Below are positions 13,979 through 20,218 of a stretch of DNA of 53,907 nt, one piece after another. Below the pieces are notes generated by a model, which searched no databases, was not told the DNA's origin, and worked only from the letters and a program-made list of their open reading frames with translations. The DNA comes from an uncultured Eubacteriales bacterium (GTDB taxonomy: Bacteria; Bacillota; Clostridia; Christensenellales; CAG-138). Location of the stretch: the NCBI GenBank assembly GCA_902802805.1, contig CADCNE010000008.1, positions 35,307 to 89,213 on the forward strand, read 5' to 3'. Position 1 is the first letter of the stretch. The number at the start of each line of letters is the position of its first letter. Position numbers and translations under genes: made by a program.

Positions 13979-14064
13979 GCCCCAGCAGCGAAAAAAACGA
14001 GACGGGGCGCAACCTGAGGCGGGGATGCCCGGTATTATAGACAAAGAGACCAAGGAGGCAGACC

Positions 14065-14412
14065 ATGAAACAGCAAAAGCTCATCGGCTATCAACCGAAA
14101 TACCCGAGAAAGGCCCTGCGGGGCGCGGCCATGACGGCGGCGGCCCTGGTGGCCATGGGCGGCATGACGGGCTGCGTGCGGGTGAAGACGCCGGGGATCG
14201 CGCTGCAGACCGAGGGCATGGTGGCCGTCACGGAGCCCCCGGAGGAGGTGCTGGTCACGGACGGCGAGGTAGCCATCCCCGAGCCCGACCCCACGGAGGA
14301 GGCACTGGTGCTGGAGGGGGAGGTGGCCATCTGTGAACCCGAGCCCACCCCGGAGCCGCCGGTCGCCACCTCAGGCGTGCTGCTGATGCCTACCGATACG
14401 CCCGCCCACTGA
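14065..14412 (+). CDS. Small repeat-bearing lipoprotein-like peptide, candidate substrate of adjacent radical-SAM enzyme
   Basis: 115 residues; ATG follows CCAAGGAGGCAGACC. The N-terminus carries basic KYPRKALRG, then a hydrophobic stretch ending GGMTGC, where Cys37 sits in a lipobox-like context. The C-terminal half has a repeated unit with Gly at 51, 67, 85 and 104: EGMVAVTEP, DGEVAIPEP, EGEVAICEP, SGVLLMPTD, separated by Glu/Pro/Thr linkers. Only two Cys (37 and 90) exist. The stop is eight bases before a radical-SAM gene. Small repeat-containing peptides paired with SPASM radical-SAM enzymes are commonly modification substrates, and small lipoproteins paired with radical-SAM enzymes have also been described. 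It could instead be a plain surface lipoprotein with a Pro-rich stalk. Confidence 0.75.
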   Translation: MKQQKLIGYQPKYPRKALRGAAMTAAALVAMGGMTGCVRVKTPGIALQTEGMVAVTEPPEEVLVTDGEVAIPEPDPTEEALVLEGEVAICEPEPTPEPPVATSGVLLMPTDTPAH

Positions 14413-14420
14413 CCGAGCCT

Positions 14421-15500
14421 ATGAACCTGACCCTTCATCTGACGGCGGACTGCAACCTGCGCTGCCGCTACTGCTACGAGACCCACTGTAAAAACCATAT
14501 GACCTGGGACACGGCCCGTCAGGCGGTGGACCTGGTCTTTTCCTATGGCCACGAGACCAACGGCCTCTCCCTGTTCGGCGGCGAGCCTTTGCTGGAGCGG
14601 GGTATCGACGAGGAGATCTGCCGGTACGCCAAGGCCGAGGCCCGGCGGCGAGGCGTCAGCGTCCGATTCAAGATGACCACCAACGGCACACTGCTGGACG
14701 AGTCGTTTTTGAAGTTCGCCAATGAGCACGACCTGGAGATCGCCCTCAGCCACGACGGGCTCCTGCAGGACCGGCAGCGGCTGACCCGGGACGGGCGGCC
14801 CACCCGGGAGAAGCTGGAACCGGTGGTGGATCTGCTGCTGCGATACCAGCCCAACGCCGTGGCCCTGCAGACCGTGACCCCCGAGACCGTGGGCGGCATG
14901 GCCGAGTCCGTTGCCTGGCTCCACGACCGGGGGTTCGCCCGGGTCAATTCCGTCATCGACTACCGGCCGGGTGCGGGCTGGGACGACGGTTCCCTGGCCG
15001 TGCTGAAGGGACAGTATGAGATCGTGGCGGACCTGATGGAAGCCCGGTTCGACGATAAGCGGCCGCTCCTTTTCCTGCCATTCCTCACGAAGATCTCCGC
15101 GTATCTGAACGACCGGCCGTGCCTCGAATGCAAGCTGGGCATGCGCCAGCCCTCCGTGGCGGAGGACGGGAGCATCTATCCCTGCAATCAGTTCCTGTAC
15201 CTGCCGGAGTACCGCATGGGCCACGTATCCGCCGGCGTCGACCGGGCGAAACAGCATGCCATCTATACGGCGTCCCTGGCCCCGGAGCCGGACTGCGAGG
15301 GTTGCGCCATACTGGATCGGTGCCGGCACCACTGCGCCTGTCTCAATTTCAGCCTTACTGGGGACATGCACCGAGTCGCCCCCGTCCAGTGCGAGCACGA
15401 GCGCATCCTCATTCCCATCGCCGACGCCCTGGCGGAGCGGCTGTACGAGAAGAAAAGCGCACGGTTTCTTTTGAATTATCGGGAGGATGGGTTGGAATAA
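14421..15500 (+). CDS. Radical SAM/SPASM domain enzyme, probable peptide or protein maturase
   Basis: 359 residues. The radical-SAM cluster motif CxxxCxxC is Cys11, Cys15, Cys18 (TADCNLRCRYCYE), and the SAM-binding GGEP is at 53-56. The C-terminal third holds a SPASM-type set of Cys for auxiliary Fe-S clusters: 234, 237, 255 (DGSIYPCNQF), 292, 295, 301, 305, 307 and 324. This layout is shared by anaerobic sulfatase-maturing enzymes and by RiPP maturases forming thioether or C-C links. No sulfatase gene is nearby, while a short repeat-bearing peptide gene lies directly upstream, so a peptide maturase is the favoured reading. There is no obvious ribosome site; coupling to the upstream gene is likely. 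No protease or exporter gene for a secreted RiPP is adjacent. Confidence 0.88.
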   Translation: MNLTLHLTADCNLRCRYCYETHCKNHMTWDTARQAVDLVFSYGHETNGLSLFGGEPLLERGIDEEICRYAKAEARRRGVSVRFKMTTNGTLLDESFLKFANEHDLEIALSHDGLLQDRQRLTRDGRPTREKLEPVVDLLLRYQPNAVALQTVTPETVGGMAESVAWLHDRGFARVNSVIDYRPGAGWDDGSLAVLKGQYEIVADLMEARFDDKRPLLFLPFLTKISAYLNDRPCLECKLGMRQPSVAEDGSIYPCNQFLYLPEYRMGHVSAGVDRAKQHAIYTASLAPEPDCEGCAILDRCRHHCACLNFSLTGDMHRVAPVQCEHERILIPIADALAERLYEKKSARFLLNYREDGLE

Positions 15501-15518: not shown

Positions 15519-15657
15519 GCACCTTTTTTCTTGAAAGAAAAAGATGCCCAAAAAGAACTTAAGAAGGGATATAGCTGTCGTATGTATAGCCATATCCCTT
15601 CTTAAGTTTCTCTTTTTTCGGTCCCTTTTTTCTCTTTGTCCAAAGGGAAAAAAGGAC
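15519..15657. repeat. Cluster of three intergenic hairpins between converging genes
   Basis: First, an imperfect CTTTTTTCTT/AAGAAAAAG hairpin (15519-15547). Second, a perfect 17-pair stem AACTTAAGAAGGGATAT (15556-15572) / its complement (15592-15608), with a further GCT/AGC pairing in the loop. Third, GTCCCTTTTTTCTCTTTG (15621-15638) facing CAAAGGGAAAAAAGGAC. Converging radical-SAM (+) and YheO-like (-) transcripts end here, so it probably terminates both. The T-rich/A-rich arms match other intergenic hairpins of the window (30319, 32975, 35406, 39047). Confidence 0.75.
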
Positions 15658-17178: not shown

Positions 17179-18093
17179 ATGAAAAAATGGATCAGCCTTC
17201 TGTTGGTCGCTCTGATGCTGATGGCGATCGCGCCTGTGGCCATGGCCGACCCGGAGATCACCGAGGACAGCATCATCACCATCGTCAACTGCAAGAACTC
17301 TGCCAACGTCCGGGAGAAGGCCACCAGCGACAGCAAGAAGCTGGGCGAAGCTCCCCGGGGCAAGACCTACCAGCTGCTGGCGGTGGAGGGCAACTGGTAC
17401 AAGATCCAGTACAAGAAGGACTTGACGGGCTATGTGTACACCAAGTACGGCAAGGTGGGCAAGAAGGGCGACGCGCCGCTGAAGGACACCGCCACGGTGA
17501 CCAACGCCCCCGACGGCGTCAACATCCGCGCCAAGGCCAGCAGCTCCAGCAAGATCCTGGGCGTGGCCTATAACGGCGACACCTTTGAGGTCACGGGCAA
17601 GAGCGGCAAGTGGACCAAGGTGATCTATAAGGGCGACACCGCTTACATCTACACCTCCTACCTGTCCATCACCAAGGGCACCGAAACGCCGACGGGCACC
17701 AAGATGTACGTGACCGGCGTCGATGTGCTGAACGTTCGCGCCAAGGCCAGCAGTTCCAGCAAGATCCTGGGCACCTATAATAAGGGCGACGAGGTCACCG
17801 TCTACGGCACCAGCGGCAAGTGGTCCAAGATCAAGTATTCCGGCGACACGGCCTGGCTGTTCACCTCCTATCTGACCAAGTACAAGGACGATGTGGATGG
17901 CAAGACGGCCACCATCGTCAACGTGAAGTATCAGGTGAACATCCGTGCCAAGGCCAGCAGCTCCAGCAAGAAGCTGGGCACGGCGGTGAACGGCGAGACC
18001 TTTACCGCGAAGGGCGTCAGCGGCCGGTGGGTGAAGGTGGAGTATAAGGGCGATACGGCCTATATCTACGACAAATATGTGAAGATCGGCTGA
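17179..18093 (+). CDS. Secreted protein with four SH3b (SH3_3) repeats
   Basis: 304 residues; GAGAGGAG precedes ATG 17179. Signal peptide MKKWISLLLVALMLMAIAPVAMA is followed by four bacterial SH3 repeats of about 60 residues (roughly 32-95, 98-165, 173-238 and 242-304). Each has the pattern VNxRxxASSSSKxLG, then GxxxxVxGxSGxWxKVxYKGDTxYIYxxY. The last three share near-identical RAKASSSSK blocks, indicating recent duplication. Such domains bind cell-wall peptide or accompany wall hydrolases; no enzymatic domain is present here, so it is a probable wall-binding exported protein. Confidence 0.88.
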   Translation: MKKWISLLLVALMLMAIAPVAMADPEITEDSIITIVNCKNSANVREKATSDSKKLGEAPRGKTYQLLAVEGNWYKIQYKKDLTGYVYTKYGKVGKKGDAPLKDTATVTNAPDGVNIRAKASSSSKILGVAYNGDTFEVTGKSGKWTKVIYKGDTAYIYTSYLSITKGTETPTGTKMYVTGVDVLNVRAKASSSSKILGTYNKGDEVTVYGTSGKWSKIKYSGDTAWLFTSYLTKYKDDVDGKTATIVNVKYQVNIRAKASSSSKKLGTAVNGETFTAKGVSGRWVKVEYKGDTAYIYDKYVKIG

Positions 18094-18180: not shown

Positions 18181-18219
18181 TTGAGCAAGCCCACGACGCT
18201 GTCCGACCAAGGAGGACCG

Positions 18220-19239
18220 ATGAAAAAAGCGATCTCTGTTCTGCTGGCCCTGGCCATGACGCTGGTCCTGGCCGCCTGCATGAACGTGAAAGTGGCTGAG
18301 ACCCCCGCTGAAAAGACCGAGGAGCCTGCGGTCACCGCGGAGCCAACGGCCGAGCCCACGGCGGAACCGACGCCGGAACCTACCCCGGAGCCCACGCCTG
18401 AGCCCACGCCGGAGCCCACGGCCGCGCCGACGGATACCCCCGCGCCCACGGAGGTCCCCGACAAGGCGATCCTGGCGGCGGCCAACGAAAAGCTGCGGCG
18501 GGTCCAAAGCCTCCACATGGACATGGAAGTGGACATGGACATGGACATATCCCTGGCCATGGGCGAATTCACGCAGGGGATACCCGCGGACGTTCGCATG
18601 ACGCTCAAGGTGGATTTGACCCGTGATCCCGACCTGTTTCGGGGCGAGATGGATCTGTCCGCCGTGGGAGAGACCGCCGAAGCTCAGATCTACGGGGCCC
18701 GGGACGGCGAGAGCGCCGTGGTCTACACCTCGATGGATCAGGGAAAAACCTGGCGGAAGCAGGGAGATCTTCAGATGGACCGGCTGCTTCGATCCCCCGG
18801 CGACATCTTGGGGCTGCTCCTCGAGGGGGACCTGCGGCACACCGGCGCCACGGACGTGAACGGTCGCCCCGCCGCGGTCTATATCGGCAAGGTGAGCGGA
18901 AAACGCCTCCGGGAGATCATGGAGAGCACGGGCACCCTGGGCACGATGAGCGAGGCCTTGTCGCTGGACCTTCCCGAGGTGGTCCTGGATGAGCTGAGCG
19001 ATATGGACGTGACGATCCGGATCGACGAGCAAAGCGGTCTGCCCATCGGGTGCACGGTGGATATGACCGGGGCCATGGGGGACCTGATGACCGCGATCCT
19101 GACGGCGGATAAGGAGGCGGGGGGCGTGGAGATCCGCATGGACGTGACCGCCGCCGTGCTGAACATGACCTTGTCCGACTTCGATGCCGTGGAGCCCATC
19201 GTCATCCCCGAAGAAGCTCTGAACGCTCCGGGGTCCTGA
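18220..19239 (+). CDS. Lipoprotein with Glu-Pro-Thr stalk, LppX/DUF6612-like
   Basis: 339 residues; AAGGAGGACCG precedes ATG 18220. MKKAISVLLALAMTLVLAAC gives a clear lipobox (LAAC, Cys20). Residues about 38-75 are a TxEP/TPEP repeat stalk. The rest is a single domain with alternating Met-Asp strands (LHMDMEVDMDMDI, then VRMTLKVDLT) and a DQGKTWRKQ segment. It is reminiscent of the LolA/LppX-like lipoproteins grouped as DUF6612, but I am unsure of the family. It ends AVEPIVIPEEALN, like its downstream neighbour, so the two are probably paralogues made by tandem duplication. Surface anchored; function unknown. Confidence 0.82.
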   Translation: MKKAISVLLALAMTLVLAACMNVKVAETPAEKTEEPAVTAEPTAEPTAEPTPEPTPEPTPEPTPEPTAAPTDTPAPTEVPDKAILAAANEKLRRVQSLHMDMEVDMDMDISLAMGEFTQGIPADVRMTLKVDLTRDPDLFRGEMDLSAVGETAEAQIYGARDGESAVVYTSMDQGKTWRKQGDLQMDRLLRSPGDILGLLLEGDLRHTGATDVNGRPAAVYIGKVSGKRLREIMESTGTLGTMSEALSLDLPEVVLDELSDMDVTIRIDEQSGLPIGCTVDMTGAMGDLMTAILTADKEAGGVEIRMDVTAAVLNMTLSDFDAVEPIVIPEEALNAPGS

Positions 19240-19248
19240 CCGACCGCC

Positions 19249-19272
19249 AGCCGCCCCAGGGCGGCTCGTTTC
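19249..19272 (+). terminator. Weak hairpin between paralogues
   Basis: AGCCGCCC (19249-19256) / GGGCGGCT (19259-19266) with a short loop, then CGTTTCCC. The U-tract is poor; it could attenuate rather than stop transcription into the next gene. Confidence 0.35.
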
Positions 19273-19303
19273 CCTAACGATACGACAGAAAAGGAGATAC
19301 ACC

Positions 19304-20218
19304 ATGAAAAAAACGATCGCTCTTTTCCTTTCCCTCCTGTTGCTCCTGGGCCTGACGGTCTTGGTCGGGGCGAGGACCGCCAGCGCTGCCATGGCGGCCC
19401 CTCGGTCGGACGAGTCCGCCGAAGACGCGGTGCGGGATGCCTTTGCAAAGCTTTGTGAGGCGGAGAGCCTCCGGTATGACATCGGCATCACCATGGAGAT
19501 GGCCATGAAGATCTCCGCCCAGGGGGTGACCATGGAGATGCCCATCAACATGCGCATGACCTGCGGCCTGGATATGCAGATGGACCCCTATCTGGTGAAG
19601 GGGGACGTGACCATGGATGTCGATATGGGCACCTACGGGATCCAGACGCAGCATATCCTGGTCTACGGCGCCAACGACGGGGAGAAGCTCGTCGCCTATT
19701 CCTCCATGGACGACGGTGCCACCTGGACGACTCAGGAGAACGGCAGCCTCCACGCGCTGCTGCCGGGGGAAGCCTTCAATCTGATCCAGGATCATGTCCA
19801 TGACGTGGTGCGGGCGGGGACGGAGACCTTTCAGGGCGCGAAGGTCGATGTGTATACCGGCTTGCTGGAAGGCAAGTACATAAACCAGGTCGTGTCCGCC
19901 ACGGGCATGGACGGCATGCTCTCTGAGGTCACCGGCGGGGACGAGACCGCCCTGGACGCCGCTGAACTGGGCGATATCCCGGTGACCATCTACATCGACG
20001 GCGACGGCTATCCGGTGTACTACGCTATGGATATGGCCGAAGCCATGAATGGCATGCTGGCGGCCGCCATGCAGGAGCTCATGGGCATGTCGGAGATGGA
20101 GGGCATGGAGATCACCATAGACATTCCCGTCGTTCGGGGGGAGAGCATCCTCGCCAGCTTCAACGCCGTGGAGCCCATCGTCATCCCCGAGGCCGCTCTG
20201 AGCGCCCCGGAGGCATAA
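19304..20218 (+). CDS. Secreted paralogue of the upstream lipoprotein, without lipobox
   Basis: 304 residues; AAAAGGAG precedes ATG 19304. The signal peptide ends near TASA|AM and has no Cys at the cleavage site, so it is probably secreted rather than lipidated; the stalk is absent. The domain shares the features of the 18220 protein: alternating Met strands (MEMAMKI, MEMPINMRM, VTMDVDM), SMDDGATWTTQ, and the ending AVEPIVIPEAALS. It probably belongs to the same transcript. Met is strikingly frequent throughout, including the MQELMGMSEMEGMEI segment. Function unknown. Confidence 0.82.
   Translation: MKKTIALFLSLLLLLGLTVLVGARTASAAMAAPRSDESAEDAVRDAFAKLCEAESLRYDIGITMEMAMKISAQGVTMEMPINMRMTCGLDMQMDPYLVKGDVTMDVDMGTYGIQTQHILVYGANDGEKLVAYSSMDDGATWTTQENGSLHALLPGEAFNLIQDHVHDVVRAGTETFQGAKVDVYTGLLEGKYINQVVSATGMDGMLSEVTGGDETALDAAELGDIPVTIYIDGDGYPVYYAMDMAEAMNGMLAAAMQELMGMSEMEGMEITIDIPVVRGESILASFNAVEPIVIPEAALSAPEA

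Follow-up and report, generated by a model that had tools for sequence, protein, structure and literature searches.

A predicted lipoprotein repeat peptide and a radical SAM/SPASM enzyme form a candidate peptide-modification cassette in uncultured Clostridia

A 53,907-nucleotide stretch of DNA from an uncultured Eubacteriales bacterium (GCA_902802805.1, contig CADCNE010000008.1, positions 35,307 to 89,213 of the forward strand; hereafter the window) encodes a 115-residue small protein and, directly downstream, a 359-residue radical S-adenosylmethionine (SAM)/SPASM enzyme. We propose that these genes probably make up a two-gene cassette, in which the repeats of a predicted lipoprotein would be modified in the cytoplasm by the enzyme before the protein is exported and anchored at the cell surface through Sec, Lgt and LspA. 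Across relatives, the genetic pairing of the two genes is strict, the catalytic Cys sets are intact, the leader motif of the small protein is conserved and the number of its repeat units varies. The small protein is most likely the substrate of the enzyme, and an earlier reading of the window's letters (the sequence-only reading), which saw here a precursor and its maturase, possibly anchored in the membrane, fits what we tested.

Results

The two genes occur together

We searched 151 genomes of the window's own genus, family and order for the enzyme. Enzymes of at least 49% identity over most of their length were present in 31 of them, one (in G072) with an internal TGA; further down came three enzymes, about 38-43% identical and spread over two genomes, that form part of a sister branch described below, followed by matches at about 32% or lower. 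A profile covering residues 1-45 of the small protein, built from 31 sequences, matched exactly the same 31 genomes (E <= 2e-11), and its next match (4.8e-5) covered the hydrophobic part only. Absence of the small protein from all other genomes with the enzyme had been named beforehand as grounds for giving up the pairing; the small protein accompanies the enzyme in 31 of 31. Four genomes of the window's genus carry neither gene, and two of these are 97% complete. The small protein lies directly upstream of the enzyme in 30 of the 31 genomes, and in the remaining one (G006) both genes sit at contig ends; an extra small-protein copy (G002:C95) is also broken off at a contig end. Stop and start are mostly 4-9 bases apart or overlap by 4 bases, and in nine of the 31 genomes the enzyme is preceded by two small proteins.

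When open reading frames (ORFs) within 7 kb on each side of 24 loci were clustered by similarity, the enzyme cluster alone was present at all 24; the small protein, present by motif at all 24, was split by similarity owing to its divergence. Two more large clusters, of 20 and 16 loci, seem on inspection by eye to be ORFs lying out of frame in GC-rich DNA. Neighbours vary by genus, with prs and flanking genes at 8 loci, an MFS-type transporter and its neighbours at 5, and recA in the most distant genus among the loci (all named by eye), and no exporter, transporter, peptidase or RiPP recognition element (RRE; RiPP, ribosomally synthesized and post-translationally modified peptide) protein was common to all the clustered loci. 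Loci with a named source (23) are all from uncultured Clostridia, Clostridiales or Bacillota, several from goat, sheep, cattle or reindeer samples, and RUG names designate rumen genomes.

We consider it improbable that the small protein is an ordinary surface lipoprotein whose neighbour acts on something else or serves as an export or quality partner. Lipoproteins with acidic stretches rich in Pro, Glu and Thr are common, and the window holds one of its own (18214-19239); against this account stand the co-occurrence in 31 of 31 genomes and the adjacency in 30 of 31 across different neighbourhoods, together with loci where tandem precursors precede a single enzyme and the recurrence of the leader ahead of sister-clade enzymes.

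A predicted lipoprotein signal peptide with a conserved motif

The small protein begins MKQQKLIGYQPKYPRK, and its ORF (14065-14412, plus strand) has the signal-like N-terminus and the lipobox described in the sequence-only reading: a basic segment containing Y9-x-P11-x-Y13-P14-x-K16 runs into an Ala-rich hydrophobic stretch and the lipobox MTGC (residues 34-37), with an acidic core behind it. In 31 aligned sequences Y13 and P14 are invariant, and Y9 and P11 occur in at least 90% of rows. At the lipobox, all 45 precursors derived from the loci have [GA]C, which is partly by construction of the search, and all 116 complete database homologues have GC; the residue at position -3 is mostly Val, Ala or Met, and is Met in the window's protein. 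A signal peptide that ends in a lipobox with Cys at +1 predicts lipidation and cleavage by LspA, and both Lgt and LspA are encoded in the genome.

The homologues come from a database search that returned 162 proteins at E <= 10, of which the best 120 were listed; one chimera (P0049) and three proteins with short or odd ends (P0075, P0096 and P0108) were dropped, leaving 116. L029 and L074, spurious ORFs internal to the enzyme, were dropped from the locus-derived precursors. P0049, on a contig of 1434 bases, starts as the N-terminal half of the small protein and continues, from a short common stretch (VTD), as the C-terminal part of the PhzF protein encoded next door, the product of an inversion or, more likely, of a chimeric assembly. 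No Pfam family matched the small protein at E <= 1, and its one NCBIfam match is at chance level (11.7 bits, where the cut-off is 225).

An acidic repeat core, mostly free of Cys

The sequence-only reading had counted four G-x-V-A-x-x-E-P repeats in the window's protein; three are exact (at residues 51, 67 and 85), and the fourth, GVLLMPT at residue 104, is a degenerate copy. Counting G-x-[VILM]-x-[VILMP] units in 45 different locus precursors gave 134, where 200 shuffles that preserved composition averaged 27 and never exceeded 41; one precursor lacks any unit. The 116 homologues, a closely related set whose rows are not independent, hold 460 units (one to seven per protein) against 74 after shuffling (maximum 93), a comparison that tests order and not descent. 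Units are most commonly spaced 15-17 residues apart in the homologues and 14-17 in the precursors, and their commonest form is [LT]-x-G-x-[VI]-x-[VI]-[DPE]-[EPD]. The cores are strongly acidic, with a median net charge of -16 (range -32 to -9).

That the core falls outside the Cys-rich and aromatic classes also held up. Cys is absent from 33 of the 45 locus-derived cores and from 78 of the 116 homologues; the window's own core has one, and no core among the 45 has more than two. Phe, Trp, Tyr and His are all missing from 14 of the 45. Neither thioether formation nor aromatic crosslinking can therefore be the general chemistry of the core. Among these 45 cores we found neither the Cys-rich core of sactipeptides nor the aromatic residue or His in each core expected of cyclophane and other aromatic-crosslinked RiPPs, and the pairing of Cys with an Asp/Glu or Thr acceptor typical of ranthipeptide cores is likewise wanting, most cores being without Cys.

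A radical SAM/SPASM enzyme without an RRE

The enzyme matches Pfam Radical_SAM at 62.4 bits and has, as noted earlier from the letters, complete cysteine sets: CX3CX2C at residues 11-18 and seven SPASM Cys at 237, 255, 292, 295, 301, 305 and 324. In a 26-row alignment, a chosen subset of 20 enzymes of the window's branch (B) and 6 of the sister branch (A), Cys11 is present in at least 90% of rows and every other motif Cys is invariant. The radical SAM core starts at residue 3, and the open frame is just 28 codons longer than the gene (387 against 359). A model of the enzyme matches CteB from residue 94 onward, and CteB's N-terminal region, whose residues 1-93 we take to be the RRE, is absent. 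The window enzyme thus differs from PapB and CteB (PDB 5wgg/5why) in having no N-terminal region before the radical SAM core, and the N-terminal RRE of ranthipeptide enzymes was not found in it.

The best NCBIfam match of the enzyme is the PapB model (177.3 bits against a cut-off of 340), and the enzymes pass none of the NCBIfam models shown for them. At E <= 1e-60 the PapB model matches in 321 of 391 genomes of the class, with 284-391 bits among the matches listed. In a tree of 38 enzymes, branches A and B form one clade (100/100), apart from PapB and SCIFF (100/100); the window's branch B is itself one clade (100/100), and branch A is not a single clade. A PapB-like system of the ranthipeptide type, in which Cys would be joined by a thioether to Asp or Glu, would explain why PapB is the best match, would suit a core rich in Asp and Glu, and could use the Cys of some units (GEVAICEP in the window). 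We regard it, however, as the least probable of the alternatives considered here: the match lies far under the cut-off and under every PapB match listed, the enzyme belongs to a separate clade and has no RRE, and 33 of the 45 cores offer no Cys at all. PapB itself is treated in PMC9413430.

A sulfatase near the enzyme in all relatives had been named as evidence that would refute a peptide-modification system, and no PF00884 sulfatase match was found at E <= 0.001 in the window's own assembly, which is 93.5% complete. This sets the enzyme apart from anSMEcpe (PDB 4k36-4k39), as does its score of 77.6 bits against the cut-off of 349 for anaerobic sulfatase maturases. ChlB, known with the ChlA leader (PDB 9gm3/9gmc), shares 18% sequence identity with the window enzyme.

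A sister branch shares the leader and carries a different cargo

The three enzymes of about 38-43% identity, from two genomes of the family, adjoin longer proteins with the same kind of N-terminus, and the three such partners we scanned have no Pfam or NCBIfam match. With a sister partner protein as query, matches were found in 6 of 391 class genomes and 2 of 103 family genomes; in all 8 genomes one copy or more has a radical SAM gene next to it, in one case across an intervening gene. For a further copy in G245 and for a tandem pair in G028, no radical SAM gene shows within the little DNA covered there. In the sister branch, too, two lipoproteins can stand in tandem ahead of a single enzyme (L107 and L112 in G425; L108 and L113 in G311). 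A partial enzyme match in G114 (46% over 90 residues) was not counted with the window's branch: it is the C-terminal end of an A-like radical SAM/SPASM enzyme from another family of the order (L149, 4082-4354), cut at a contig end, so that any partner lies out of view.

A database search with the sister protein returned 236 proteins at E <= 1e-3, the few with names among the matches listed coming from Firmicutes, Bacillota, Armatimonadetes and Atribacteria. None of the best 120 of the 236 has a Pfam domain; a leader-like pattern ending in [PA]xYP occurs within the first 60 residues of 116 of these 120, and GxGRxx[FY]GC in 107. In a 49-row alignment, a chosen subset of the 120, the leader motif's final Pro and, in GxGxGxxGC, the four Gly and the Cys are invariant. 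The more distant members L109, L110 and L114 are without the GC motif, and the lipobox Cys is absent from a few sister proteins (P0272 and P0280, for example), so lipidation is not obligatory there. Taken together, L049-L051, L105-L118 and P0241-P0360 delineate a large, undescribed family of exported proteins of about 225-320 residues that have a Y..PxYP leader and a signal peptide, that mostly carry GxGxGxxGC, and that lie beside PapB-like radical SAM enzymes.

The two branches thus share an enzyme clade, a Y..PxYP leader, a signal peptide and, in the 8 genomes looked at, gene adjacency; they differ in cargo, which is longer, predicted to be folded and mostly marked by GxGxGxxGC in branch A, and made of short repeats in the window's branch. 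An hhalign comparison of the two leaders aligned 42 columns with a probability of 96% (P 3.1e-9). At L051 (5949-6911 and 7760-8887), the enzyme branches first in the A+B clade (94/89), and its partner protein is a hybrid with several L-x-G-x-x-x-P-P-E-like repeats and a long C-terminal part.

The shared leader allows another account, in which the enzyme modifies the Tyr and/or Pro of Y-x-P-x-Y-P, the signal peptide released by LspA is the product and the core is incidental cargo. The leader motif is the best conserved part of the small protein and the sole part clearly common to a sister branch with different cargo; Tyr is a frequent target of radical SAM enzymes, and lipoprotein-derived pheromones provide a precedent for a product made from a released signal peptide. 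Nevertheless, shared leaders with differing cores are usual for RiPP recognition sequences, and this account leaves the ordered core units (134 against 27 expected) unexplained. Although it is the alternative to which we give most weight, we think it unlikely.

Discussion

The small precursor, conserved leader, variable core and co-conserved enzyme described here have the general form of a RiPP pair, and predict that the core is modified. We propose that the Y-x-P-x-Y-P-x-K leader, located in the n-region of the signal peptide, would bind the enzyme directly, with no RRE, and that the acidic core of G-x-V-x-V-[DPE]-[EP] units would be modified in the cytoplasm. Our best guess at the chemistry is a net two-electron oxidation, with a loss of 2 Da per modified unit as a C-C, C-O or C-N bond or a dehydro residue is formed. 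The guess follows CteB and anSME, structural relatives that have two auxiliary clusters and catalyse oxidations of this type. A redox-neutral epimerisation of Val or Ile in the units, of the kind performed by epipeptide epimerases, would take the place of this oxidation, and we rate it as quite unlikely. After modification, Sec, Lgt and LspA would export, anchor and trim the protein; LspA would stand in for the leader peptidase, and Sec for the ABC exporter, that ordinary RiPP clusters dedicate to these tasks. The high negative charge of the displayed peptide would suit cation binding or a role as a surface spacer. This order of events raises a problem of timing, since modification would have to come before export; an enzyme bound at the n-region would mask the signal, as has been voiced for bufferins (PMC12452194).

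Bufferins are among the closest known systems. According to PMC12452194, a Sec signal peptide is highly unusual for a RiPP precursor, and bufferins were the only RiPPs whose Sec export in the natural host had been demonstrated experimentally; bufferin precursors have Sec signal peptides in place of typical leaders, about 16% of those of the Buf2 type are predicted to be lipoproteins, and a partner protein is speculated to mask the signal peptide until modification. The window pair shares a predicted Sec signal peptide and the predicted lipidation seen in some of these precursors. It differs in its enzyme: bufferins, in that account, use an MNIO enzyme with a DUF2063/RRE-type partner on Cys-containing precursors, whereas the window's small protein is paired with a lone radical SAM enzyme, not with an MNIO maturation enzyme, no partner protein was seen, and its repeats are mostly Cys-free. 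By analogy, the pair would be a RiPP-like system with Sec export, as in bufferins, built on a different enzyme and core and with no partner protein. Among the papers listed by searches of the open PMC literature, no title or abstract opening mentions a radical SAM-modified lipoprotein, subscription papers lying outside that scope. A survey of rumen bacteriocins finds ranthipeptides by TIGR03973 (PMC13289728), and would not be expected to detect the window family.

Several points weigh against this reading of the cassette. Many of these loci went into the leader profile, so that its matches there are in part built in; this does not apply to its absence from the 120 genomes that have no such enzyme. 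The leader, being common to both branches, could be the target instead of the core. The core is of low complexity and a P/E/T-rich lipoprotein-like protein lies nearby (18214-19239), so the repeat alone means little. The A-branch motif GCxSVAPP fits the B unit no better than permuted profiles do (21 of 200 of these matched as well), and the halves of the enzyme tree meet on long branches, which drew a program warning. Finally, the named loci are all metagenome-assembled genomes of uncultured bacteria.

Beyond the cassette itself, we tentatively raise the possibility, which we hold with less confidence than the cassette, of a new class of RiPPs whose leader, used by an RRE-free radical SAM/SPASM enzyme, is the lipoprotein signal peptide itself. 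One enzyme clade would then mature two kinds of exported cargo, the membrane-tethered repeat peptides of ruminant-gut Clostridia and a large family of folded proteins, mostly with GxGxGxxGC, using non-thioether radical chemistry on aliphatic and acidic units, and Sec and LspA for export and trimming. If true, this would be a second, independent solution, a radical SAM clade with signal-peptide-bearing partners, a motif inside the signal peptide and no RRE. It would also add an enzyme-tractable way of modifying peptides that depends on neither Cys nor aromatic residues, and would provide an initial hypothesis for a large, unannotated family of exported proteins.

Locus layout

The features of the locus are collected in Table 1. 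An AAGGAGG ribosome site precedes the small-protein ORF at 14052-14058, and 8 bases separate that ORF's stop codon from the enzyme gene. A divergent PhzC/PhzF gene lies upstream of the small-protein gene; downstream of the enzyme come the palindrome, of about 50 bases and a likely bidirectional terminator, and a convergent PAS/HTH regulator gene.

Table 1. Positions of the small protein, the enzyme and associated elements in the window
Feature	Coordinates	Strand	Basis
Precursor-like small protein, 115 residues	14065..14412 (stop included)	+	ORF; database homologues; co-occurrence with enzyme
Leader motif Y-x-P-x-Y-P-x-K, residues 9-16, n-region of signal peptide	14089..14112	+	Conservation in 31 sequences; sister-branch profile match
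Hydrophobic stretch and lipobox MTGC, predicted LspA cut before Cys37	14119..14175	+	
Acidic repeat core, predicted modification region	14176..14409	+	Composition and unit counts
Unit 1, GMVAVTEP, residue 51	14215..14238	+	
Unit 2, GEVAIPEP, residue 67	14263..14286	+	
Unit 3, GEVAICEP, residue 85	14317..14340	+	
Degenerate unit 4, GVLLMPT, residue 104	14374..14394	+	
Radical SAM/SPASM enzyme, 359 residues, no RRE domain	14421..15500	+	
CX3CX2C radical SAM cluster motif, enzyme residues 11-18	14451..14474	+	
SPASM domain Cys set, enzyme residues 237-324	15129..15392	+	
Long palindrome, terminator-like, between enzyme gene and convergent PAS/HTH gene	15557..15607	no strand	Read directly from sequence

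Further along the window, 17179-18093 encodes a secreted-looking protein with four SH3_3 repeats, and 18214-20218 holds two adjoining genes with DUF6612-like matches, the second below the family cut-off. The first of that pair (18214-19239) is lipoprotein-like and has a linker of TAEP/TPEP repeats, and acidic Pro-rich stretches are thus not rare in the window.
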